In this document: one piece after another, positions 1 through 61,322 of the stretch | How the letters are laid out: the number at the start of each line of letters is the position of its first letter | Position numbering within the stretch: position 1 is the first letter of the stretch | Assembly: GCA_023666275.1 (NCBI GenBank) | Contig: JAMPCJ010000009.1 | Coordinates: 1-64,000 of the forward strand | DNA length: 64,000 nt | Origin: Treponema brennaborense | Lineage (GTDB): Bacteria; Spirochaetota; Spirochaetia; Treponematales; Treponemataceae | Reading direction: 5' to 3' | Notes under the pieces: model-generated | Told to the model about the DNA's origin: nothing | Seen by the model: the letters and a program-made list of their open reading frames with translations, nothing else | Database searches by the model: none | Made by a program: the position numbers and the translations under genes

Positions 1-9
1 GGGGGGGGG
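1..9 (+). repeat. Poly-G tract (at least G9) in lipoprotein signal peptide
   Basis: Nine G start the window and may extend to the left of it. They encode Gly-Gly plus the first two bases of a third Gly codon, eight residues before the lipobox Cys. Loss or gain of one G would shift the frame before the lipobox and abolish the lipoprotein. The tract is followed by TATA, close to the G-tract-TAA pattern of the other tracts in the window. Confidence 0.7.
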
Positions 10-46180: not shown

Positions 46181-46969
46181 ATGAAGACATTGATTTTAGC
46201 AGGCGGAATGGGTACTCGACTGGGAGAAGAAACAAAGCTCATTCCTAAGCCAATGGTAGAAATCGGCGGTTATCCTATTCTATGGCACATAATGAAAATT
46301 TACAGCCACTATGGCTATAACGATTTTATAATTCTCACTGGTTATAAAGGGCATGTAATCAAAGAATTCTTTTTGAATTATTACAACCGCTATAGCGATA
46401 TGACGATTGATCTTTCTAACAATGATGTCCAAATTCACAAAATGCGTACTGAGCCATGGAAAATTACAATGCTTTATACAGGACCTATGACGATGACGGC
46501 AGGGCGTATTCAAAGGGCAAAAGAATACATTGGCAATGAACCATTTCTGCTAACTTATGGAGATGGCGTAAGTAATGTTGATATTGCGAATCTTGTCGAA
46601 TCACACGCAAAGTCAGGAAAATTAGTGACTCTTACAGCTGTAAAACCAGAAGGTCGTTTTGGTACTCTTGATATTGAAACCGGCGGAACTATCAGACAGT
46701 TTCATGAAAAGCCCGCTGATGCATGGATAAATGGCGGTTTTTTTGTTTGTGAGAACAAATCTTTGGATTATATTCCCTTAGAGGCTGATAACATTATGTG
46801 GGAAAGAGAGCCTTTGCAGAATATTGCGAAAGACAAACAATTACATGCATACAAGCATGAAGGCTTTTGGCATCCAATGGATATGCTTAAAGACAAACAA
46901 GATTTGGATAAGCTTTGGGCAACGGAAAAAGCGCCTTGGAATGTATGGAATCATTTTGGAAACAAATAG
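46181..46969 (+). CDS. rfbF: Glucose-1-phosphate cytidylyltransferase
   Basis: 262 residues, the family length. The nucleotide-binding start is LILAGGMGTRLGEETKLIPKP. ITLTGYKGHVIKEFF-like sequence and YGDGVSNVDI, which holds the metal Asp, follow. It makes CDP-glucose from CTP and glucose-1-phosphate, the first step toward CDP-3,6-dideoxysugars. First gene of the low-GC island; the next gene starts one base after its stop. Confidence 0.96.
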   Translation: MKTLILAGGMGTRLGEETKLIPKPMVEIGGYPILWHIMKIYSHYGYNDFIILTGYKGHVIKEFFLNYYNRYSDMTIDLSNNDVQIHKMRTEPWKITMLYTGPMTMTAGRIQRAKEYIGNEPFLLTYGDGVSNVDIANLVESHAKSGKLVTLTAVKPEGRFGTLDIETGGTIRQFHEKPADAWINGGFFVCENKSLDYIPLEADNIMWEREPLQNIAKDKQLHAYKHEGFWHPMDMLKDKQDLDKLWATEKAPWNVWNHFGNK

Positions 46970-46970
46970 A

Positions 46971-48041
46971 ATGAATGAATTGTTGAATTTTTATAAAAAT
47001 AAAAAAGTATTTCTTACAGGACATACAGGTTTTAAAGGAACTTGGCTTACTCGTGTTCTAATACTTGCCGGAGCTAAAGTTACCGGTTATTCACTTGAAC
47101 CTCCAACAAATCCGAGCCTTTTTGAAAGGACAAATACTTCAAGTCAGATTGATTCAATTATCGGTGATATTTGTGACGGTTCAAAATTAAAAGCGGCTAT
47201 GCAAAATGCGAGCCCTGATATTGTATTGCATCTTGCAGCACAGCCGATTGTTCGTACTAGTTATAAAGATCCGGTTGGAACCTATGAATCCAATGTAATG
47301 GGAACTGTAAATGTTTTGGAAGCCGTGCGTGCAACCCAAAATGTAAAATCTTTTGTAAATGTAACAACTGATAAAGTTTATTTGAATAAAGAATGGAACT
47401 GGGGGTATCGAGAAAATGAAGAACTCTGCGGATTTGATCCTTATTCAAATTCAAAATCTTGTTCAGAACTGGTAACTTACAGTTATAAAAATTCTTTTTT
47501 TGCAGAAGCCGATTCGCCGGCAATCAGTACCGCCCGCAGCGGAAATGTAATTGGCGGAGGAGATTATGCTGTTGACCGCATTATTCCGGACTGCATCAGA
47601 GCCGCGGAGACTGGAAACGAAATAGTTCTTAGAAATCCGAATTCAACCCGCCCGTATCAGCATGTTCTTGAATGTCTCAGGGGTTATCTGATGCTTGCTC
47701 AAAGGCAGTATGAAGATAAGTCTTTCGCAGGGAATTATAACTTCGGTCCCAATGATGAATCCTGTGTTACAACGGGGGAACTTGCAGCATTATTCTGTGA
47801 ATCATGGGGAAACGGAACTGAATGGAAAGATGTCAGTGAAGCAGATGCGCCGCATGAAGCTAATTTTTTGAAACTGGACTGTTCAAAGTCAAAATCAGTT
47901 TTAGGCTGGTATCCTAAGTGGAATATCCGGCAGACTGTTGAGAAAATTATTGAGTGGGAAAAGGCTGTGCAGACAGGTACTGCTGCCGCAGAAATTACCG
48001 ATATGCAGATTAAGGAATATTTTGAGAATGATTATGTTTGA
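46971..48041 (+). CDS. rfbG: CDP-glucose 4,6-dehydratase
   Basis: 356 residues starting at ATG 46971, one base after rfbF. An SDR with the Rossmann motif TGHTGFKGTW at residues 15-24, DVTTDKVY-like NVTTDKVY, and the YSNSK catalytic YxxxK. It turns CDP-glucose into CDP-4-keto-6-deoxyglucose. The longer frame beginning at 46824 lies inside rfbF and is rejected. Confidence 0.95.
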   Translation: MNELLNFYKNKKVFLTGHTGFKGTWLTRVLILAGAKVTGYSLEPPTNPSLFERTNTSSQIDSIIGDICDGSKLKAAMQNASPDIVLHLAAQPIVRTSYKDPVGTYESNVMGTVNVLEAVRATQNVKSFVNVTTDKVYLNKEWNWGYRENEELCGFDPYSNSKSCSELVTYSYKNSFFAEADSPAISTARSGNVIGGGDYAVDRIIPDCIRAAETGNEIVLRNPNSTRPYQHVLECLRGYLMLAQRQYEDKSFAGNYNFGPNDESCVTTGELAALFCESWGNGTEWKDVSEADAPHEANFLKLDCSKSKSVLGWYPKWNIRQTVEKIIEWEKAVQTGTAAAEITDMQIKEYFENDYV

Positions 48042-49362
48042 AGGGAAAACAAAAGAAGAGGCAACCAAAGAAATTCTAGAGAGCGTAAGAGCATACTACG
48101 CAAAGTTTATGCAGAAACCTAACTACAAAGACGGCGACCGCATCAGTTATGCAAGCCGCGTATTTGATGAAAAGGAAATGATGAACCTTGCAGATTCCAT
48201 GCTCGAATTCTGGCTTACAAGCGGACGCTATACAGAACAGTTTGAAAGGCAGTTGGGCGAATATCTTGGAACTTCGTTTGTTTCGCTTGTAAATTCGGGA
48301 TCTTCCGCAAATCTTTGTGCGTTTATGGCTTTGACATCACCTTTGCTGAAAGACAGACAGATTAAGCGCGGGGACGAAGTAATCACCGTTGCCTGCGGTT
48401 TCCCGACGACTGTTACGCCTGTCTTGCAGTACGGTGCAGTTCCCGTTTTTGTCGATGTAACAATTCCGCAGTACAATATTGACGTAACACAACTTGAAGC
48501 GGCATTAAGCCCAAAGACAAAAGCTGTAATGATTGCGCATACGCTCGGCAATCCGTTCGATTTGAAGACAGTAAAAGATTTCTGTACAAAGCATAATTTG
48601 TGGCTTATAGAAGACAACTGTGATGCACTCGGTTCGGAATACACGATTGATGGAAAGATATTCAAGACCGGCACAGTAGGAGATATAGGAACTTCCTCGT
48701 TTTATCCGCCGCATCACATGACTATGGGTGAAGGCGGCGCTGTTTATACATGCGATCCGCTTTTGCATAAAATTATCCGCTCAATGCGTGACTGGGGCAG
48801 GGACTGTATTTGCCCCAGCGGTGTCGATAATCTTTGCAAGCACCGTTTTGACAAGCAGTATGGTACATTGCCTGTCGGGTATGACCACAAATATACATAC
48901 AGTCATTTCGGATATAATCTAAAAGCAACTGATATGCAGGCTGCGGTAGGATGTGCTCAGCTTGAAAAATTTCCTTCGTTTGCGGAGCGCAGAAAACATA
49001 ATTGGAAGCGGCTTCACGATAGCTTGAAGTGCCTTGAAGACAAATTGATTTTGCCGCAGCCTGTTGAAAACAGTAATCCGTGCTGGTTCGGTTTTTTGAT
49101 TACTTGCCGCGAAAATGTGGATAGATTTGAATTGGTAAAAAAAATCGAGGCAGAAAATATACAAACGCGTGCACTTTTTGCGGGAAACCTCACACGCCAT
49201 CCATGTTTTGATCAGATTCGTGGAACGGACGCCTATCGTGTTGTCGGTGATTTGTCTGTAACAGACAGAATTATGAAAGATACTTTCTGGGTCGGTGTGT
49301 ATCCGGGAATGACAGATGCAATGGTTGACAGAATGGCTAGTGTGATTAAGGAAAGTTTGTAG
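48034..49362 (+). CDS. rfbH: CDP-6-deoxy-D-xylo-4-hexulose 3-dehydrase (E1)
   Basis: 442 residues of the DegT/DnrJ/EryC1 fold. The usual PLP-binding Lys is replaced by His in SSFYPPHHMTMGEGGA, the hallmark of E1, which uses PMP. Cysteines for a [2Fe-2S] cluster are present: NCDALG, then CIC, seven residues, and C. It removes the C3 hydroxyl to give the 3,6-dideoxy-4-keto sugar and needs an iron-sulfur reductase (E3), which is not seen in this window. Start is ATG 48034 or 48028. It overlaps the rfbG stop. Confidence 0.94.
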   Translation: MFEGKTKEEATKEILESVRAYYAKFMQKPNYKDGDRISYASRVFDEKEMMNLADSMLEFWLTSGRYTEQFERQLGEYLGTSFVSLVNSGSSANLCAFMALTSPLLKDRQIKRGDEVITVACGFPTTVTPVLQYGAVPVFVDVTIPQYNIDVTQLEAALSPKTKAVMIAHTLGNPFDLKTVKDFCTKHNLWLIEDNCDALGSEYTIDGKIFKTGTVGDIGTSSFYPPHHMTMGEGGAVYTCDPLLHKIIRSMRDWGRDCICPSGVDNLCKHRFDKQYGTLPVGYDHKYTYSHFGYNLKATDMQAAVGCAQLEKFPSFAERRKHNWKRLHDSLKCLEDKLILPQPVENSNPCWFGFLITCRENVDRFELVKKIEAENIQTRALFAGNLTRHPCFDQIRGTDAYRVVGDLSVTDRIMKDTFWVGVYPGMTDAMVDRMASVIKESL

Positions 49363-49367
49363 GGTAT

Positions 49368-49442
49368 ATGGAATTAGAAAGGTACTATGATATTTTATTG
49401 AAATTACAGAAAAAAATTAGTGCTTGGGACTTTTATTTATGA
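49368..49442 (+). CDS. 24-residue small ORF coupled to the ThDP-enzyme gene
   Basis: ATG 49368 opens a 24-codon frame (MELERYYDILLKLQKKISAW and four more residues). Its TGA overlaps the ATG of the ThDP enzyme as ATGA. AGGG lies before the ATG. It could be a leader peptide that delivers ribosomes to the next start, which otherwise lacks a good Shine-Dalgarno. No similarity recognised. Confidence 0.4.
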   Translation: MELERYYDILLKLQKKISAWDFYL

Positions 49443-51295
49443 AACAACGTTTAGCAGATTATGTTGCAGACTTTCTGGTGAATTATGGCGTTACCGATTG
49501 TTTTACTGTCGTTGGCGGCGGAGCGATGCATTTAAATGATGCGCTCGGTCATCACGACGGACTAAAGGTAACGTATAATCATCACGAGCAGGCTTGCGCG
49601 ATTGCGGCTGAAGCGTATGCCCGCTTGGATAATAAAATCGCGGCAGTCTGCGTCACCACGGGGCCGGGAGGAACGAATGCGATTACAGGTGTTGTCGGCG
49701 GTTGGCTGGATTCTATTCCGATGTTTATTATTTCGGGACAGGTGAAATATACGACAACAGCAAGATATGCGATGCAGTTTACGGACGGGCTTCCACTAAG
49801 AGCAGTGGGAGATCAGGAGTATGACATTGTAAAGTCCGTAGAGCCGATGACAAAATATGCCGTTATGATTGAAGATCCGATGCAGATTCGCTATGCGTTG
49901 GAGAAAGCATGGCATTTGGCGACAACGGGCAGACCGGGACCTGTCTGGATTGATATTCCGGTAAATTATCAGGGAAGTTTTATTGAAACGAACGACTTAA
50001 AAGGATATGATCCTGCGGAGGATGATGCGCAGCTGCCGCCACCCGTTTCGGAGAATGTTGTCAAGACTGTGGTAGAGGAACTGCGCAAAGCGAAACGTCC
50101 TGTTATTTATGCGGGCGGCGGTATCAGACTTTCAGGTGGATATGAAGCGTTTCGGAAAGTAATTGAAAAACTCAATGTGCCTATTGTTACATATTGGAAT
50201 TCGATAGATGTGATAGAGAACGCACACCCGCTGTATGTGGGCAGGGGCGGAAACATGGGAGATCGTGCAGGCAATTTTGCTGTTCAGAATTCTGATTTGC
50301 TGTTGGCGATTGGAACACGAATTTCCATTCGACAGACAGGGTATGATTTTAACACATGGGCAAGAGCGGCAAAAGTTATCATGATCGATATTGACAGAGC
50401 AGAAATGAAAAAGCCGACGATTCATGTGGCTATGCCGATATGGGCTGATGCAAAGGATTTTTTAGAAAAATTAGATAAAATTGTTTCCAAAGAAAAGGAT
50501 ATTGTATTTAACGAAAAAGTGTGGATGGAAGCGTGTCAAAATTGGAAGAAGAATTATCCTGTTACATTGCCGCGTCATTGGGAAGAAAATGGCGGATACG
50601 CAAATGTTTATGCGTTTGTGCGATATATGAGCGAGCAGCTTCCAGAGAACAGTCTTACGGCGGTATCAAATGGTGCGTGCTGTGTTGTTGGACATCAAAA
50701 TTATTGTATAAAAAAAGGAACGCGGTTTATTATTAACAGTGCGATTGCAAGTATGGGATATGGTTTGCCTGCTGCAATCGGGCTTTGTCTTGCGGGCGGA
50801 AAAAAAGAAACGATCTGTCTTGAGGGGGACGGTTCGATTATGATGAATTTGCAGGAGCTGCAAACAATTGTTACGAACAAGCTGCCGATTAAAATATTCC
50901 TTATCAATAACCAAGGCTACCACTCTATAAGAATAACACAGAGCAACCTATTCTCACAAAATTGCAGAGTGGGTATCGGACCTGAATCCGGAGATTTGTC
51001 ATTCCCTGAATATAAAAAGATAGCAGAAGCATTCGGTTATCCTTATTTTGAGGCACATTCCAATGAAGAGATGAAACGGGTAGTCAATCAAGTTCTTGAA
51101 ATGCAGGGATTTGTATTTTGTGAAATTTTTACCAATACCATTCAGGTATGGGAGCCGAAGAGCAGTACAAAGCGCCTTGAGGACGGAACGCTCATCAGCC
51201 CGCCGCTTGAGGACTTGGCGCCGTTTTTACCGAGGGAGGAATTGGAGAAAAATATGTTTATTTTACCCCCCCCCGTCAAAAAAACGGAAGATTAA
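49439..51295 (+). CDS. Thiamine-diphosphate enzyme, acetolactate-synthase fold (YerE-like candidate)
   Basis: 618 residues. The PYR domain has the catalytic Glu in YNHHEQACAIAAEAYAR and the loop TTGPGGTNAITG. A central domain follows. The PP domain has the ThDP/Mg motif GDGSIMMNLQELQT then LINNQGYHS. Beside rfbFGH, such enzymes are known to add a two-carbon unit from pyruvate to the 4-keto sugar (YerE in yersiniose synthesis); this is the likely role but not proven. True anabolic acetolactate synthase is less likely here. A C9 tract near the 3' end sets the C-terminal residues LPPPVKKTED and the stop position. Confidence 0.88.
   Translation: MKQRLADYVADFLVNYGVTDCFTVVGGGAMHLNDALGHHDGLKVTYNHHEQACAIAAEAYARLDNKIAAVCVTTGPGGTNAITGVVGGWLDSIPMFIISGQVKYTTTARYAMQFTDGLPLRAVGDQEYDIVKSVEPMTKYAVMIEDPMQIRYALEKAWHLATTGRPGPVWIDIPVNYQGSFIETNDLKGYDPAEDDAQLPPPVSENVVKTVVEELRKAKRPVIYAGGGIRLSGGYEAFRKVIEKLNVPIVTYWNSIDVIENAHPLYVGRGGNMGDRAGNFAVQNSDLLLAIGTRISIRQTGYDFNTWARAAKVIMIDIDRAEMKKPTIHVAMPIWADAKDFLEKLDKIVSKEKDIVFNEKVWMEACQNWKKNYPVTLPRHWEENGGYANVYAFVRYMSEQLPENSLTAVSNGACCVVGHQNYCIKKGTRFIINSAIASMGYGLPAAIGLCLAGGKKETICLEGDGSIMMNLQELQTIVTNKLPIKIFLINNQGYHSIRITQSNLFSQNCRVGIGPESGDLSFPEYKKIAEAFGYPYFEAHSNEEMKRVVNQVLEMQGFVFCEIFTNTIQVWEPKSSTKRLEDGTLISPPLEDLAPFLPREELEKNMFILPPPVKKTED
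51266..51274 (+). repeat. C9 tract at the 3' end of the first ThDP-enzyme gene
   Basis: Codons TTA CCC CCC CCC. With C9 the protein ends at 51295, 43 nt before the next GTG. With C8 the frame runs to a stop at 51329, inside the downstream hairpin. With C10 it stops with TGA at 51340-51342, overlapping the next start codon as GTGA. The reverse strand reads G9-TAA. Confidence 0.75.
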
Positions 51296-51307
51296 AGCTA
51301 TGTCATT

Positions 51308-51337
51308 CACGCTCCTTTGGGCAGCTTAAGGAGTGTG
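51308..51337 (+). promoter_or_regulatory. Hairpin sequestering the Shine-Dalgarno of the second ThDP-enzyme gene
   Basis: CACGCTCCTT (51308-51317) can pair over ten base pairs, one of them G-U, with AAGGAGTGTG (51328-51337) around a 10-nt loop. The second arm contains the AAGGAG Shine-Dalgarno of the GTG start at 51339. Translation from the upstream gene into this region would open it. Confidence 0.6.
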
Positions 51338-51338
51338 C

Positions 51339-53069
51339 GTGATAAAGGCTTCTGATTTCATTGTAAAATATTTTGAACTTCTCGGAATAAAATGCATTTT
51401 TGGCTATCAAGGCGGAATGGTAACTCACCTTGTTGATTCTTTGAGAAAAAGCGTTTCCGTGAAATTCATTCAGTGTTATCATGAGCAGTCCGCCGCTTTT
51501 TGTGCGGAAGGCTATGCAAAAGAAAGCGGCATGCTTGGAGTTGCCATTGCGACTTCTGGTCCCGGCGCGACGAATTTAATTACGGGAATTGCCGACGCTT
51601 ACTTTGATTCTGTTCCTGTGCTTTTTATAACGGGGCAAGTCAATTCGTATGAATACAAATATGAAAAGAAAAAACGTCAGCAAGGTTTTCAGGAAACGGA
51701 TGTCGTTTCGATTGTAAAACCGATTACAAAATACGCGGAATTCGTTGACGATGTAAAAAAGTTGCCGCGATGCTTGAAGCAAGCGGCTGAAATAGCTATG
51801 TCTGGGAGAAAAGGTCCTGTCCTTCTTGATATTTCAATGGATGTTCAGCGAAGCGAAATTTTGTGGGACGAAAATTTTTTCAAGAAGCAAAATAATGGCA
51901 GCAAAAATGATGTTTGTTTTACGGAGAAAATAAATTCCGCATTGGAAGAATTTTCCAAAGCAAAATCTCCGCTTGTTTTATGCGGGCAAGGAATTAAACT
52001 TTCGCACTGCGAAGAAAAATTGGAATATTTTGTAAGACTGAATGATTTGCCGTGCGTTGTTTCGCTTTTGGGGAAAGGCTGTATTGATGAAATGCTGGAA
52101 AATTTTGTTGGCATGATTGGCAGTTACGGAAACCGTGCCGCAAACATAATTTTTGAAAACGCGGATTGCGTGCTAGTCCTTGGATCTCGGCTTGATTTGC
52201 GCCAGACTGGAAATGTGAATTCGATGTCTTTGCAGAAAATTCGATTCATTCACATCGATATTGACGAAAATGAACTTAATGAAACTTCCGTAAAAAAACA
52301 TCTTGGAATATGTTGCGATTTGAATAAATTTTTCGATACCGTAAAGAATTGGAAAATGCAAAACGAAAATTCGGATTGGAAGAATTTTGTCGTAAAAATA
52401 AAAAATGAATATTCGCAGCAAAAAGACATATCTTTGTTTGCGGCAGACAAAATGCCGTATATCTCTATTCAAAATATTTGCGCGTGTTCTGATTCCGATA
52501 CGGTTTTTGTCAGCGACATCGGGCAAAACCAAATGTGGGCGGCGCAGATGCTTTGTTTGAAAAAGGGACAGGAATTTTTTACGGGCGGCGGACTTGCGGC
52601 GATGGGATGTGCGGTTGCGTTCGGAGTGGGAATTGCGTTTGCTAATCCAAAGAAAAAAGTGATTTGCATTGTTGGCGACGGCGGATTTGAATTCAGTCTT
52701 CAATCATTGCTTCTGATTTCGCAATATGATTTGAATGTTATGGTCGTTGTTCTTAACAATGAATCGCTTGGAATGATAACTCAATTTCAGAGTTTATACT
52801 TTGATTCAAATATGGCGGGAACGACAAAGAACGGCGGCTACATCGTTGGCGACATTAAAGAATTTGCACAAGCGAATTATCTTTGCTATGAAAAAATTAA
52901 AGATGTTGAAAATGAAAAAATAATTTTCAAGAAAAGATTTGTTATGGAGATAAATCTGAACGGACTTACAACCGTTGTTCCAAAGCTTGAATATAACAAG
53001 AGCCTTTCCGATATGACGCCGAAAGTAAAAACATATCGATTTTTGCCTAACTGCACGTCAAATGATTAG
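51339..53069 (+). CDS. Second thiamine-diphosphate enzyme, acetolactate-synthase fold
   Basis: 576 residues starting at GTG 51339, with AAGGAG 5 nt upstream; an earlier GTG (51333) overlaps that Shine-Dalgarno. PYR domain with catalytic Glu in QCYHEQSAAFCAEGYAK and TSGPGATNLITG. PP domain with GDGGFEFSLQSLLL and VVVLNNESLGM. It is clearly diverged from its upstream neighbour and has a different base composition, so it does not look like a recent duplicate. Either enzyme, or both, may transfer a two-carbon unit to a nucleotide sugar. Confidence 0.88.
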   Translation: MIKASDFIVKYFELLGIKCIFGYQGGMVTHLVDSLRKSVSVKFIQCYHEQSAAFCAEGYAKESGMLGVAIATSGPGATNLITGIADAYFDSVPVLFITGQVNSYEYKYEKKKRQQGFQETDVVSIVKPITKYAEFVDDVKKLPRCLKQAAEIAMSGRKGPVLLDISMDVQRSEILWDENFFKKQNNGSKNDVCFTEKINSALEEFSKAKSPLVLCGQGIKLSHCEEKLEYFVRLNDLPCVVSLLGKGCIDEMLENFVGMIGSYGNRAANIIFENADCVLVLGSRLDLRQTGNVNSMSLQKIRFIHIDIDENELNETSVKKHLGICCDLNKFFDTVKNWKMQNENSDWKNFVVKIKNEYSQQKDISLFAADKMPYISIQNICACSDSDTVFVSDIGQNQMWAAQMLCLKKGQEFFTGGGLAAMGCAVAFGVGIAFANPKKKVICIVGDGGFEFSLQSLLLISQYDLNVMVVVLNNESLGMITQFQSLYFDSNMAGTTKNGGYIVGDIKEFAQANYLCYEKIKDVENEKIIFKKRFVMEINLNGLTTVVPKLEYNKSLSDMTPKVKTYRFLPNCTSND

Positions 53070-53087
53070 CAAAATATAGCTCATATC

Positions 53088-53124
53088 ATACACGGTTTCT
53101 TGTAGTAGCTTAAGGAATGTGTAT
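53088..53124 (+). promoter_or_regulatory. Second, related Shine-Dalgarno hairpin
   Basis: ATACAC-GG-TTTCTT (53088-53101) pairs with AAGGAA-T-GTGTAT (53112-53124), again hiding an AAGGA. The loop end AGCTTAAGGA is identical to that of the 51308 hairpin, so the two segments are probably copies. The ATG just after it (53125) opens only a 10-codon frame. Confidence 0.45.
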
Positions 53125-53129
53125 ATGGA

Positions 53130-53237
53130 ATGCTGCAATATCCGAAAATTGATATGACTCAGAAACAAAAAATGCCTTTTATGCAGACAAGCTGCACCGG
53201 AACGGGTTCTCCTAGTACTCTAGACAATATTGATTAA
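53130..53237 (+). other. Unidentified 35-codon frame between genes
   Basis: ATG 53130 to TAA 53237 would encode 35 residues (MLQYPKIDMTQKQKMPFMQT and 15 more). The spacing to the AAGGA at 53112 is too long. It may be a remnant of a lost gene that once followed the hairpin. Confidence 0.2.
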
Positions 53238-53251
53238 AAACTAGGTATTCT

Positions 53252-54238
53252 ATGCGTCGTATTGCTTTAACAGGTGCAACCTCTATGCTCGGTGCTTCTC
53301 TCATTGAAGAGTGCATTAAAGACAATATAGAAGTTCTTGCCTTTGTTCATCAAGGTTCGTCAAAATTAGATCGCTTGCCAAAATCACCGCTTGTGAAAAT
53401 TGCGGAGTGCGATTTGTGCGATATGGCTGCATTCGATGTCGGATTGGAAAGATGTGATGTCTTCTACCATTTTGCGTGGGGTTATACGGACAAGAAAGTT
53501 CGTGATAATCCAAAACCTCAATTGAAAAACCTAGAATATGTTTTTGATGCTGTTGATTTGGCAGCTCGGCTTGGCTGTAAAAAATTTATCGGTGCGGGAA
53601 GTCAAGCCGAATATGGCATTACTAGCGAAATTATAAGCGAAAAAACAAAGTGCGATCCACTTTCTTCCTATGGAATAGCGAAATTTGCAGCAGGAAAACT
53701 TTGCGAAAAATTATGTGCGAAAAAAAATATGATTTGTATTTGGACACGTATTTTTTCGGTTTATGGAGAATATGAAAATCCCAATTCTCTTATTTCTTAT
53801 TTGATAAACTGTTCTTTGAAAGGAGAAACTGCAAAAGTTTCGGCAGGACTCCAAAAGTGGGAATATCTTTATCAATCTGATGCCGCACGTTTTTTCATTG
53901 CGATTGGAGAAAAATGCAAAGAAAGCAAAGTTTTGATTCTTTCATCATTGGATAAAAGACAGTTAAAGGATTATGTTCTGGAAGTGCAGGAACTTACGGG
54001 TAGAAAATTGAATTTAGAATTCGCGCCGCCTTCGGACATTCCAATGGTGACGCTTGATTCTGATATTTCTGCTTTGATCCATGATACAAATATAAGACCA
54101 AGGGTGAGTTTTAAAGAAGGCGTTATGAAAATGATAGAATGTTGTAAGACGTTACCCCCCCCATACAACCATGACAAGTACTTCCTGATTTTTAGTCGTT
54201 ATGTTGATACGCTTTCTTCTTGGAGGCGTGCGGCATGA
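53252..54238 (+). CDS. NAD(P)-dependent SDR epimerase/reductase
   Basis: 328 residues. Extended SDR with the dinucleotide motif TGATSMLGASL at residues 7-17, and YGIAK as the catalytic YxxxK with an upstream GAGSQAEYG. In a yersiniose-type pathway a YerF-like reductase would act on the two-carbon side chain; in other 3,6-dideoxyhexose pathways a similar SDR reduces the 4-keto group. The last 28 residues (from TLPPP on) lie after a C8 tract and look unlike the family. The TGA overlaps the next ATG. Confidence 0.85.
   Translation: MRRIALTGATSMLGASLIEECIKDNIEVLAFVHQGSSKLDRLPKSPLVKIAECDLCDMAAFDVGLERCDVFYHFAWGYTDKKVRDNPKPQLKNLEYVFDAVDLAARLGCKKFIGAGSQAEYGITSEIISEKTKCDPLSSYGIAKFAAGKLCEKLCAKKNMICIWTRIFSVYGEYENPNSLISYLINCSLKGETAKVSAGLQKWEYLYQSDAARFFIAIGEKCKESKVLILSSLDKRQLKDYVLEVQELTGRKLNLEFAPPSDIPMVTLDSDISALIHDTNIRPRVSFKEGVMKMIECCKTLPPPYNHDKYFLIFSRYVDTLSSWRRAA
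54155..54162 (+). repeat. C8 tract at the 3' end of the SDR gene
   Basis: Codons TTA CCC CCC CCA. With C8 the frame runs on for 76 nt and ends TGA at 54236-54238, overlapping the next ATG (54235) as ATGA. With C9 it would stop at about 54173, and with C7 at about 54189, well before the next start. The reverse strand reads G8-TAA. Confidence 0.75.
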
Positions 54239-55293
54239 TGAAACTGACAGACAATACAATAATCGATAGCGATTTGGAAGAGATAGTATCCGAACCATTA
54301 AATTGGGAATATTTTGCCAATAAGACCGTCATTATCACGGGTGCAAATGGAATGCTTCCGGCATATATTGTGTATGCTTTGCTCGCTTTAAACGATACGT
54401 GTCTGAAAGAGAAAAAATGCAAGATAATCGCAAATGTCAGAAATTATGATAAGGCAAGAATAAAATTTGAAAAGTTTCTTAACCGCAATGATTTTCAGTT
54501 ACTCTTGAAAGATGTAACTGAACTGGCAGAATTTTGCGGAAGTGTGGATATAGTGATTCATGCCGCAAGCCAGGCAAGTCCGAAATACTACGGAATAGAT
54601 CCTGTGGGAACGCTGAAGGCTAATACAATCGGTACGATGAATATGCTGGAACTTGCCAAAAATAATAAATGTGAAAAATTTTTATTTTTCAGTTCAGGGG
54701 ATGTTTATGGGGTGTTGGACGGGGCTGTTCCTGTGATTAGCGAAACATATACGGGAAACGTTGATATAACAAATGTCCGTTCATGTTATGCAGAGAGCAA
54801 ACGCATGGGTGAAACAATGTGTGTATGTTATGCGCATCAATACGGCTTGCACGTGAATATGCTCAGGCTTGCTCATACTTATGGTCCCGGCTGCGCATTA
54901 GATGACGGCAGGGTGTTTGCGGATTTTGTCAGAAATATCATTAACAAGGAAAATATCAGAGTTAATTCAGATGGCGGTGCAAAAAGGTGTTTTATGTACG
55001 TTACTGATATGATAAAAGCTTTGTTTTATGTTTTACTTAAAGGAAAAAACAAAGAAGCGTACAATATTTCGTCAGTAAAAGAAACTTCCATAAGAGAATT
55101 GGCAGAGATGCTATGCGGATTATACCCTGAAAAGCTGCTTCATGCAGAATTTTCAGAAACAAAGGATGATAATCTGTATATGAAATCAAAATCGACCGTT
55201 GGAAAGCTTGATACCACAAAATTGTGCGGACTGGGATGGAAGCAAACGGTTTCTCTCGAAGATGGTTTTAAAAGGATGATTCAGAGTTACTGA
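54235..55293 (+). CDS. NAD-dependent SDR epimerase/dehydratase (UDP-glucuronate decarboxylase-like)
   Basis: 352 residues. TGANGMLPAYIV is the dinucleotide motif (about residues 34-45), HAASQASPKYYG and FFSSGDVYG follow, and CYAESKRMGE gives the YxxxK. Substrate is not clear; the sequence resembles nucleotide-sugar epimerases and decarboxylases. ATG 54235 (or 54238) has TTGGAGG about 8 nt upstream. The TTG at 54220 is itself part of that Shine-Dalgarno and is rejected. Translationally coupled to the preceding SDR in the present C8 state. Confidence 0.87.
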   Translation: MMKLTDNTIIDSDLEEIVSEPLNWEYFANKTVIITGANGMLPAYIVYALLALNDTCLKEKKCKIIANVRNYDKARIKFEKFLNRNDFQLLLKDVTELAEFCGSVDIVIHAASQASPKYYGIDPVGTLKANTIGTMNMLELAKNNKCEKFLFFSSGDVYGVLDGAVPVISETYTGNVDITNVRSCYAESKRMGETMCVCYAHQYGLHVNMLRLAHTYGPGCALDDGRVFADFVRNIINKENIRVNSDGGAKRCFMYVTDMIKALFYVLLKGKNKEAYNISSVKETSIRELAEMLCGLYPEKLLHAEFSETKDDNLYMKSKSTVGKLDTTKLCGLGWKQTVSLEDGFKRMIQSY

Positions 55294-56623: not shown

Positions 56624-57582
56624 GAAAGCAGCCGATATTGAGTATTTGTATTCCTACTTTTAATAGAATTGAATATCTGGTAAAAAGCATAGAATCAATT
56701 ATCTCATCTGAAGGATTTAACAAAGACGATGTTGAAATTGTAATTTCAGATAATGCCTCAACTGATGAAACTCAAAAGACTATGTTGGAGTATTCTGAAA
56801 AATATTCCAATATCAAGTATTATAGGAATGAGGAGAATATTCGAGACAGAAATTTCCCGAAAGTTATTTCTGAAGCAACCGGAATATATAGAAAGCTGTG
56901 CAATGATACATTGTTATTCAAAAAAGATTCAATAAGAAAAATGATTGATATAATTCGGAGCAATACTGAAGAAAAGCCTGTTATCTTTTTTGATAATAAA
57001 GGCAATGAGATATTGCATGTAACTTCTCTGGAGGCATTTTTATATAGAGTAAGTTTTAACATAACTTGGATTGGCGGATTCGGCGTTTGGGAAGACTTTT
57101 GCGATGGTATGGCAGAGAGCATTGAAGGCTGTGATGAATTGCTTTGGCAGGTTTCGTTTTTGCTTAGATATATAGATTCAAAAAAAAACGCTTTGATTGT
57201 TGAAGAACCGTATTTTGTAACGCAGTCTGTTTCGCGTAAAGACATATCTTATGGATTGTATACTGTTTTTTATGTCAATTATTTGGGATTTATAAGGAAA
57301 TATTTAGAAGCAGGCACTATTTCACAATCATGTTATGATTTTCTTGAAAAAGATTTGCTTTTTAATTTTTTCCCTTTATGGATGTATAATTGGCAGCGAC
57401 AGAATAATTCATTCGAATATTCGAAAGAAGAAAACCTTGTTGCAAGTATAATGAATGCATATAACGGCAAGCCCTACTATAATAAGTTTCGACGCTTTTA
57501 CCGTTTTTTCAGGATTAAAATGACTGTTAAAAATATATTGAAAATATTTTATATGAGATATTTTTATAGGAGGACCTTATGA
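56611..57582 (+). CDS. GT2-family glycosyltransferase
   Basis: 323 residues. The GT-A fold begins LSICIPTFNRIEYLVKSIES, with VEIVISDNASTDET and a later CND where DxD is expected. It probably adds one sugar of the repeat unit. The C-terminus is basic with amphipathic helices. The TGA overlaps the ATG of the SGNH gene (ATGA at 57579), so that gene is translated by coupling when its frame is open. Confidence 0.9.
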   Translation: MAQIRKQPILSICIPTFNRIEYLVKSIESIISSEGFNKDDVEIVISDNASTDETQKTMLEYSEKYSNIKYYRNEENIRDRNFPKVISEATGIYRKLCNDTLLFKKDSIRKMIDIIRSNTEEKPVIFFDNKGNEILHVTSLEAFLYRVSFNITWIGGFGVWEDFCDGMAESIEGCDELLWQVSFLLRYIDSKKNALIVEEPYFVTQSVSRKDISYGLYTVFYVNYLGFIRKYLEAGTISQSCYDFLEKDLLFNFFPLWMYNWQRQNNSFEYSKEENLVASIMNAYNGKPYYNKFRRFYRFFRIKMTVKNILKIFYMRYFYRRTL

Positions 57583-58450
57583 AATCATCAATGTTTAAAA
57601 ATAATAGACGCGGGGGGGGGTAAGACTTTCCCTAACAATCAATGTCGTATTCTCGGTATTATTTTTGGCAATAGGAATTTGGAAATTTGATTCCATAAAG
57701 CGGATTCTTGTGGATGCCGGCAATAAAGCATTTCTGAAGCGGCAGATTTCAGAAGCAATTCTTGAAACTTTCAACAATGACATTGATAAAGATGTGCTGA
57801 ATGACGCACTTATCGTAAATCAAAACCTTAAAACAGTGACATTCCTTTTTCTCGGCAATTCATTGACATATTGTAGTGCGCCGGAAGAAGAAGCGGACAA
57901 GACGAGAAGAGGGCTTGCATCTACGAAAATCGAAAATGACTATGTACACCGCCTTGTTTCGATGTATGCGGAAAAACATAATGTCAACGTAAGATTCTCT
58001 GCAGTCAACATCGCAAACTTTGAACGCGGGTTTACGAAAAAAGAGTTTTCAAAGGATGTGACGGATTCGTTGTTATTAGGCTATGTCCATGTCGAAAATC
58101 CCGACTTCGTGATTTTTCAGATTGGAGAGAATGTCAGTCAGGAAGATATTTCAGAAAACGGAATGCTTTTCTTTGAGCGGTACTGTGCTCTGGTGAATAG
58201 TTTTGAAAATGCCAAGAAAGTTATCTGTCTTCCGTTTTGGCCACACAAAGAAAAGATAAATATTATTACGGATGTTGCATTAGCAACAGAAAGTGTTCTC
58301 TGCGATTTGAGCCATTTAGGAAGCGGACTTGATTCCGATAATTTTGCCTCAAGCTGCAAAAAATATAGGCAGCTCGGAGTCGGAATACATCCGGGCGATA
58401 CGGGAATGGACAGGATTGCAAAAAATATTTTTTCCGTTCTTTCTGAATAA
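57579..58450 (+). CDS. Phase-variable SGNH-type hydrolase/acyl-modifying enzyme, OFF in this sequence
   Basis: ATG 57579 has a perfect AGGAGG 5 nt upstream and overlaps the GT2 stop. It reads MKSSMFKNNRRGGG and hits TAA directly after a G9 tract (57612-57620). With G10 the frame continues VRLSLTINVVFSVLFLAIGI, a signal-anchor helix, and then the whole SGNH domain to 58450, 290 residues in all. The domain shows FLGNSLTY (nucleophile Ser, block I), a central QIGENV and the C-terminal GIHPGDTGMD with the catalytic His. Such membrane-anchored SGNH proteins add or remove O-acyl groups on glycans. An internal TTG at 57665 gives the shorter frame but lacks the helix start. Confidence 0.85.
57612..57620 (+). 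repeat. G9 tract controlling the SGNH gene
   Basis: Nine G at codons 12-14, followed by TAA. G10 (or G7) restores the full frame; G8 or G9 truncates the protein. Confidence 0.85.
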
Positions 58451-60962: not shown

Positions 60963-61322
60963 ATGAGAGATAAATAATATTTTTCGAAAATTTCTTAACT
61001 CATGGTCCGTTCTGTTTCCCTGAATTTTTATATCCTTCCTCTCGATCAAGCGATTCTCTTTTCATTGCTTTTTGCTCGGAATGTAAAAATTCCTGCAATT
61101 CATCGGGGGGGGTAAAATTGAATGACAAAATAATAAAATCGGCAATGATTCAAATCGGATATGAGATTGTTTGGCAATCTTGACGGGAAATATGAACGTG
61201 CGATTGTTGAGATTAGAAGACAGAGAACCGTAATTTTTGATGGGAGCTGTTCTTTAGGTATTGGGATTCGGCTCAACATTTATGAAACACTGCGATTCGG
61301 AGACAACGTGCAAATCATTTGA
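60963..61322 (+). pseudogene. Decayed acyltransferase with a G8 tract
   Basis: Pieces of a hexapeptide-type acyltransferase N-terminal half can be read in several frames: MRDK, NNIFRKFLNSW, NFYILPLDQAILFSLLFARN, then after the tract KLNDKIIKSAMIQIGYE, and finally VIFDGSCSLGIGIRLNIYE with LRFGDNV before TGA 61322. The G8 run (61105-61112) stands exactly at one frame junction and is followed by TAA; G9 would join the flanks. Further frameshifts before and after it mean the gene is dead even with G9. The C-terminal half is missing. Confidence 0.6.
61105..61112 (+). repeat. G8 tract in the decayed acyltransferase
   Basis: Reads CAT CGG GGG GGG TAA in the upstream frame. With one more G the frame continues into MIQIGY-containing sequence. 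Flanks CGGGG...TAAAAT match those of the 51266 tract read on the opposite strand. Confidence 0.7.

Follow-up and report, generated by a model that had tools for sequence, protein, structure and literature searches.

A cytosine tract at the 3' end of an enzyme gene as a proposed switch of translational coupling in a surface-polysaccharide operon of Treponema brennaborense

Within a 64,000-nucleotide stretch of the Treponema brennaborense genome (positions 1 to 64,000 of contig JAMPCJ010000009.1, assembly GCA_023666275.1; hereafter the window), a run of nine cytosines (C9) lies inside the 3' end of a gene for a thiamine diphosphate (ThDP)-dependent enzyme, here called enzyme 1. The gene for a second ThDP-dependent enzyme (enzyme 2) follows, and its Shine-Dalgarno (SD) sequence and start codon are predicted to be buried in a strong RNA stem-loop, which we call E1. 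We propose that this slippage-prone tract varies the output of enzyme 2 through translational coupling while enzyme 1 stays on, a reading that we consider evenly poised between right and wrong. The features on which it turns are these:

49439..51295, forward strand: ThDP-dependent enzyme 1, 618 residues; closest solved relative 8rph, 450 bits
51293..51295, forward strand: stop TAA of the C9 and C12 frame; tail LPPPVKKTED; 43 nt before GTG 51339
51327..51329, forward strand: stop TAA of the C8 and C11 frame; inside the hairpin, touching the Shine-Dalgarno sequence
51340..51342, forward strand: stop TGA of the C7 and C10 frame; overlaps GTG 51339
51290..51357, forward strand: E1, interrupted RNA stem-loop burying the SD and start of enzyme 2, from RNA folding prediction
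51329..51334, forward strand: Shine-Dalgarno sequence AAGGAG of enzyme 2, in the stem; mean unpaired probability 0.001
51339..53069, forward strand: ThDP-dependent enzyme 2, 576 residues, intact; 28% identical to enzyme 1

The tract occupies exactly 51266-51274 of the forward strand. When its length was varied in silico from C7 to C12, only three stop positions arose, 51295, 51329 and 51342, which bears out the initial annotation in its placing of the tract and of the three frame ends. Only in the C8 and C10 states does the upstream stop lie near or overlap the downstream start, as in translational coupling; the C9/C12 stop at 51295 is predicted to mark an uncoupled state, and the C8/C11 stop at 51329 and the C7/C10 stop at 51342 are predicted to mark coupled ones. 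The homopolymer is longer than expected by chance, as in slipped-strand phase variation, and its position at the 3' end, with an early end in each frame and the conserved part of the protein spared, is that of C-terminal phase variation. A scan of the forward strand gave no promoter match near 51266-51339, so that the tract is not a promoter spacer, and the idea of a promoter within it was rejected on the same grounds. No orthologous tract was found in relatives, with a C/G run of at least 7 in 0 of 80 homologous gene ends.

The C9 tract is a member of an organism-wide class of contingency-type tracts and not a product of chance. The whole genome holds 70 C/G tracts of at least 8 nt. In 367 kb of sequence, C/G runs of length 4, 5, 6 and 7 number 600, 39, 5 and 1, respectively, and those of length 8, 9, 10 and 11 number 26, 35, 8 and 2; these 367 kb are regions fetched around tracts and were chosen for holding them, a choice that does not produce the gap at 6-7. 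The window itself contains five C/G runs of at least 8, against 0.33 expected under a first-order model, and none of length 6-7. According to a simple heuristic, and thus approximately, the sites of the tracts include promoter spacers (for example TTGACA-CTA-C9-GTGC-TATAAA), lipoprotein signal peptides and genes whose frame is broken at the current tract length. Among lipoprotein paralogs that share their local flanks (gttaagaatata - tract - acgaagtcagcaataaa), the tract has 8, 9 or 10 Cs, an indirect sign that tracts of this class change length in this organism. The bimodal lengths and the contingency-type sites support the earlier proposal that C9 is a tract of the phase-variation type.

Judging from its sequence and its predicted model, enzyme 1 should not be switched off by tract length. 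From the TTG at 49424 every length leaves 623-639 codons, and the truncation that characterizes classic ON/OFF variation does not occur. The C-termini of homologs read 'NMFIP(L/M)(I/M)xEE*' or similar, and the C9 tail of enzyme 1, 'NMFILPPPVKKTED', is of the same kind; in the C8 and C10 states the tail gains 11-16 residues over that of C9. Conservation among homologs stops before the tract and the tail is poorly conserved, while the last helix of the predicted model stops at residue 604 (of 618) and the final four residues have a predicted local distance difference test (pLDDT) score below 50. Enzyme 1 should therefore survive in all three states, its C9 ending being native-like and the tail region poorly conserved. 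The homolog ends, the limit of conservation and the codon counts at all lengths are thus in agreement with the earlier claim that the upstream enzyme is not switched off and that its last residues change.

The start of enzyme 2 is predicted to be deeply occluded. The whole E1 stem (51290-51357) has a folding energy of -29.7 kcal/mol (z -5.2), compared with -15.4 +/- 2.7 kcal/mol for shuffled sequences, and 0 of 200 shuffles were as stable; the inner 10-bp hairpin at 51308-51337 reaches -16.2 kcal/mol (z -3.7). The initial annotation had recognized this inner hairpin over the SD, but understated the extent of the structure, which also encloses GTG 51339 and the first codons of enzyme 2. By predicted unpaired probability the SD falls within the most occluded 2% when compared with 89 same-strand gene starts, and with a ribosome modelled at the C9 stop, covering the mRNA to ~51306-51310, its mean unpaired probability is 0.001-0.014. 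Opening the region from the SD to the GTG has a predicted cost of 10-12 kcal/mol with a ribosome at the C9 stop and 20.7 kcal/mol without one; by prediction, then, the downstream start is hidden by structure in the manner of translationally coupled genes. E1 was rejected as a terminator, as no T-run follows the hairpin and a terminator scan was negative there. An Rfam search of the window from 45 to 60 kb gave nothing above chance, and a comparison with attC/integron hairpins, made by eye only, revealed no GTTRRRY core.

Ribosome footprint and reinitiation are established knowledge, and the proposed mechanism builds on both. In this model C9 is a contingency tract prone to slippage, located immediately beyond the conserved part of enzyme 1; the enzyme would be made in every state, with its loose tail alone altered. 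Ribosomes reading the C9 frame would terminate at the base of the stem, the inner hairpin would stay closed, and enzyme 2 would therefore be low. In the other two frames translation would run on into the hairpin and terminate against the SD (C8) or across the start codon (C10); with a ribosome brought to the SD or start in this way, the stem would be open and reinitiation would be possible, giving high enzyme 2 in both states. Random slips of +/-1 would then vary enzyme 2, and hence a surface sugar, without loss of enzyme 1. The tract at 54155 and those of two further glycan loci in the genome may work in the same way.

The nearest of these loci lies in the same operon, at the end of the first of two epimerase genes:

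53252..54238, forward strand: NAD-dependent epimerase 1, which carries the second 3'-end tract
54155..54162, forward strand: C8 tract at the end of epimerase 1, located just where homologs end
54192..54245 (approximate), forward strand: predicted RNA stem over the epimerase 2 SD GGAGG (54222-54226) and ATG 54235
54235..55293, forward strand: NAD-dependent epimerase 2, proposed target of the second tract

This tract was found by reading, the gene caller of the automatic screen having missed epimerase 1. Its C8 and C11 lengths end at TGA 54236-38, overlapping ATG 54235, while C7/C10 end at 54188 and C6/C9 at 54174, 46-60 nt before the ATG. The predicted opening cost is 17.6 kcal/mol at C9 and 8.6 kcal/mol at C10, and the present C8 is predicted to be the coupled state, with C9 and C10 less coupled. 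At a second locus (G000:C16:26406) a G9 tract ends the gene for a TagD-like cytidylyltransferase, and a second TagD-like enzyme is encoded next; G8 stops 2 nt before the ATG, G9 and G10 stop ~40-45 nt earlier, the SD lies in a GAGGGCA hairpin, and Bacillus subtilis TagD ends where the tract begins. At a third (C11:162785) a G9 tract ends a GT2 glycosyltransferase gene; G8 would create an ATGA overlap with the next GT2 gene, and G9 and G10 stop much earlier.

A layout in which one or two lengths end at the next start and the rest end early is thus found at 4 of 4 3'-end tracts that have a same-strand gene start within ~75 nt. All four lie in glycan operons, each between two enzymes of one family, with pair identities of 28% (ThDP), 19% (SDR), 33% (cytidylyltransferase) and 24% (GT2); the epimerases are weakly similar (E 0.003), yet both match PF01370. 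In enzyme 1, epimerase 1 and the TagD-like enzyme alike, the tract lies beyond the conserved core. Ranked by SD unpaired probability against the 89 controls, the start at 51339 stands at 2% and that at 54235 below all of them.

Several results weigh against coupling as the role of these tracts. SD occlusion at the C16 and C11 loci is moderate (ranks 52% and 12%). When 206 virtual indels were set 50-75 nt upstream of actual gene starts in this genome, 47% gave one coupled and one early frame; the frame pattern alone is therefore weak evidence, and we rejected the frame coincidence as proof of selection. Some 120 tract loci of relatives yielded one similar case only, a G9 tract before a sensor-kinase-like gene (L233 in G034). 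The family-pair pattern comes from only four loci, and SDR and GT2 genes abound in glycan loci. In addition, a strong SD with spontaneous breathing of the stem, or frameshifting on a run of seven adenines (A7) after the tract, could yield some enzyme 2 in all states. With these points counted, we tentatively suggest, with rather less than even confidence, that the tracts represent a distinct and recurrent form of phase variation, in which 3'-end tracts spare the gene that carries them and switch the next one through coupling, so that surface-glycan operons include or omit a second member of one enzyme family, and that some published C-terminal phase-variable genes really switch their neighbours.

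The closest published counterpart is C-terminal phase variation, which papers on Helicobacter canadensis (PMC2823697) and Neisseria gonorrhoeae (PMC5320596) present as a class of 3'-end tracts, with eight such genes in the former and four in the latter. The likeness is considerable: a homopolymer close to a gene's 3' end gives three frames and three C-termini, and the gene stays on; moreover, the H. canadensis examples include an rfbB-type epimerase and cluster near a glycosylation locus (PMC2823697). Slips at 51266 may accordingly do no more than alter the last residues of enzyme 1 (tail charge, length), selected or not, with the next gene indifferent, and the four further 3'-end tracts of the genome that have no close downstream gene (C11:348875, C15:54328, C15:61332 and C1:21545) would fit such a role. 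However, the tail that would be varied lies beyond the conserved core, is unstructured and has low pLDDT in the predicted model, the enzyme 2 start is exceptionally occluded, and in every glycan-operon case a downstream gene lies close by; we therefore regard this explanation as unlikely. What both papers stress is altered C-termini or fusion to the next open reading frame (ORF) (PMC2823697, PMC5320596); the word stem 'coupl' is absent from the H. canadensis text (PMC2823697), and coupling is not discussed in the passages of PMC5320596, whereas the predicted target here is translation of the next gene via a hairpin. The initial annotation knew of no described phase-variation system that works by coupling at a gene's 3' end; 3'-end tracts as such already form a class, and for the coupling role its statement stands as far as those passages go. 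A literature search on phase variation by tracts together with translational coupling returned no paper on this mechanism in the collection searched, although papers elsewhere may exist.

Other known systems share parts of the design. Promoter-spacer tracts drive transcriptional phase variation, as described for treponemal tpr genes, and the same genome contains TTGACA-C9-TATAAA arrangements with spacers of 15-16, but the tract at 51266 is not so placed. Poly-C/G contingency loci of the ON/OFF type have the same kind of tract and are present in this genome at 5' ends (G9 at 57612); here, by contrast, the gene bearing the tract is not switched off. The arrangement also resembles translational coupling by mRNA unfolding, in which an SD held in a hairpin is opened by upstream translation, and shares its GTGA/ATGA overlaps. 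The cases of coupling known to us are fixed, whereas here a mutable tract is predicted to set the frame and the frame to decide coupling. In Helicobacter pylori the G-repeat of tlpB-hp0102 is bound in the leader by the small RNA RepG, and the authors argue against direct translational coupling (PMC8295292); in that system, too, the length of a homopolymer adjusts how much of a glycan gene's product is made after transcription, as is predicted here, but there it does so through a small RNA at a leader repeat.

The gene set around the tract is a cytidine diphosphate (CDP)-sugar / surface-polysaccharide operon, of which enzyme 1 is the fourth gene, preceded by rfbF/rfbG/rfbH-like genes. The further features are:

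46181-46969: glucose-1-phosphate cytidylyltransferase homolog, upstream of enzyme 1
ORF ending at 48041: putative CDP-glucose dehydratase homolog, its family taken from sequence and position
48034-49362: RfbH homolog, upstream of enzyme 1
53068..53154, forward strand: E2, a second hairpin element and degenerate copy of E1, located downstream of enzyme 2; AGCTTAAGGARTGTG is common to both

After both epimerases come a Wzx-like flippase and then a putative glycosyltransferase-like gene. Gene order and the best solved relative, 8rph, suggest that enzyme 1 makes a branched sugar (YerE-like). Its homologs (about 70-88% identity) are nearly all in Clostridia, where the next gene is an epimerase in many cases, and an adjacent second ThDP gene was absent from all of the clostridial homolog junctions read; enzyme 2 therefore looks like an insertion between enzyme 1 and the epimerase, with which its lower GC content (0.388 vs 0.443 for enzyme 1) and the flanking E1 and E2 elements are consistent. 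A homolog of P0002 in G117 (47%, L195) lies directly after an rfbG-like gene with a stop/start overlap and without a tract. The similarity of E1 and E2 was matched by 0 of 2000 shuffles; as they are the sole close copies in the genome, E1 was rejected as a mobile genomic repeat. Between enzyme 2 and epimerase 1 (53070-53251), E2 is followed by a tiny ORF, MCIWNAAISEN*, and the two may be what is left of a further gene start, or the footprint of an insertion.

The imperfect copies flanking enzyme 2, its absence from this junction in homologs and its AT-richness relative to enzyme 1 would also fit a hairpin that is a mere scar of the insertion, with enzyme 2 independent of upstream translation and the C9 incidental. 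We judge this account quite unlikely: the forward-strand scan near 51266-51339 gave no promoter match, the SD is predicted on physical grounds to be occluded regardless of how the hairpin arose, and the same layout is seen at epimerase 2 (54235), where such repeats are lacking.

Directly 3' of the C9 tract is the A7 run, at 51278-51284, with the strong stem farther downstream; the heptamer A AAA AAC is in frame in the C10 frame only, where it is a possible -1 frameshift site. Were the DNA fixed at C9, RNA polymerase slippage on C9/A7 or ribosomal frameshifting on A7 might direct a steady share of ribosomes into the hairpin, as a constant dosage device and not as phase variation, and a slippery run followed by a strong stem would suit such a device; yet the heptamer is out of frame at C9, and tracts of the same class differ in length among paralogs of the genome, which makes this very improbable. 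A sequencing or assembly error, with a true length fixed at another value, has the difficulty of assembling such tracts in its favor, since several draft contigs end at or near them, but is the least credible explanation, because C9 gives a native-like tail, the bimodal length spectrum and class-specific sites are unlike errors, and a wrong length would shift the frame and leave the layout in place.

Other tracts of the genome deserve mention in their own right. Signal-peptide G tracts of 8, 9 or 10 occur in a lipoprotein-like family (G000 C2:89078, C4:39530, C8:25, C8:3727, C16:109908, C17:106086 and C18:1); the last is window position 1-9, and tract length differs between copies. C9 tracts lie between -35 and -10 elements (TTGACA...TATAAA) at G000 C1:53436, C1:75458, C1:77468, C2:16154, C10:98090 and C13:75103 (loci L142, L143, L145, L154 and L169), with spacers of 14-16; three of them precede genes with near-identical leaders. 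From their sequence, these C9 promoter-spacer loci are candidates for transcriptional phase variation. A G9 tract at 57612-57620 falls at codon 12 of a ~290-codon gene (57579-58450), where G9 yields MKSSMFKNNRRGGG* and G7 or G10 opens the whole ORF, and this appears to be a classic ON/OFF locus, now OFF. At L170 two further genes appear to be out of frame at the current tract length: a sulfatase-like gene (G000:C13:98426), OFF at C8 and open at C9, and an IspD-like cytidylyltransferase (C13:110942), OFF at G8 as read by eye from the flank. A G8 tract at 61105-61112 lies in a stretch of 28% GC with no clear gene around it. Draft contigs end at or near C/G tracts at C18:1, C8:3735, C4:39530-39546 and C10:47; mixed tract lengths or repeats may have interrupted the assembly there.

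Since a gene with a 3'-end tract is not itself switched, the purpose of such tracts has been unclear. If the proposed coupling is correct, they would be a third mode of expression control beside promoter-spacer and 5' ON/OFF tracts, with an unusual logic in which enzyme 1 is always on, enzyme 2 is variable and both slips from C9 raise enzyme 2. Annotation pipelines would miss switches of this kind, and the published list of C-terminal phase-variable genes would be open to re-reading for the same layout. Its occurrence four times in one genome suggests a little-noticed bacterial way to vary surface sugars.

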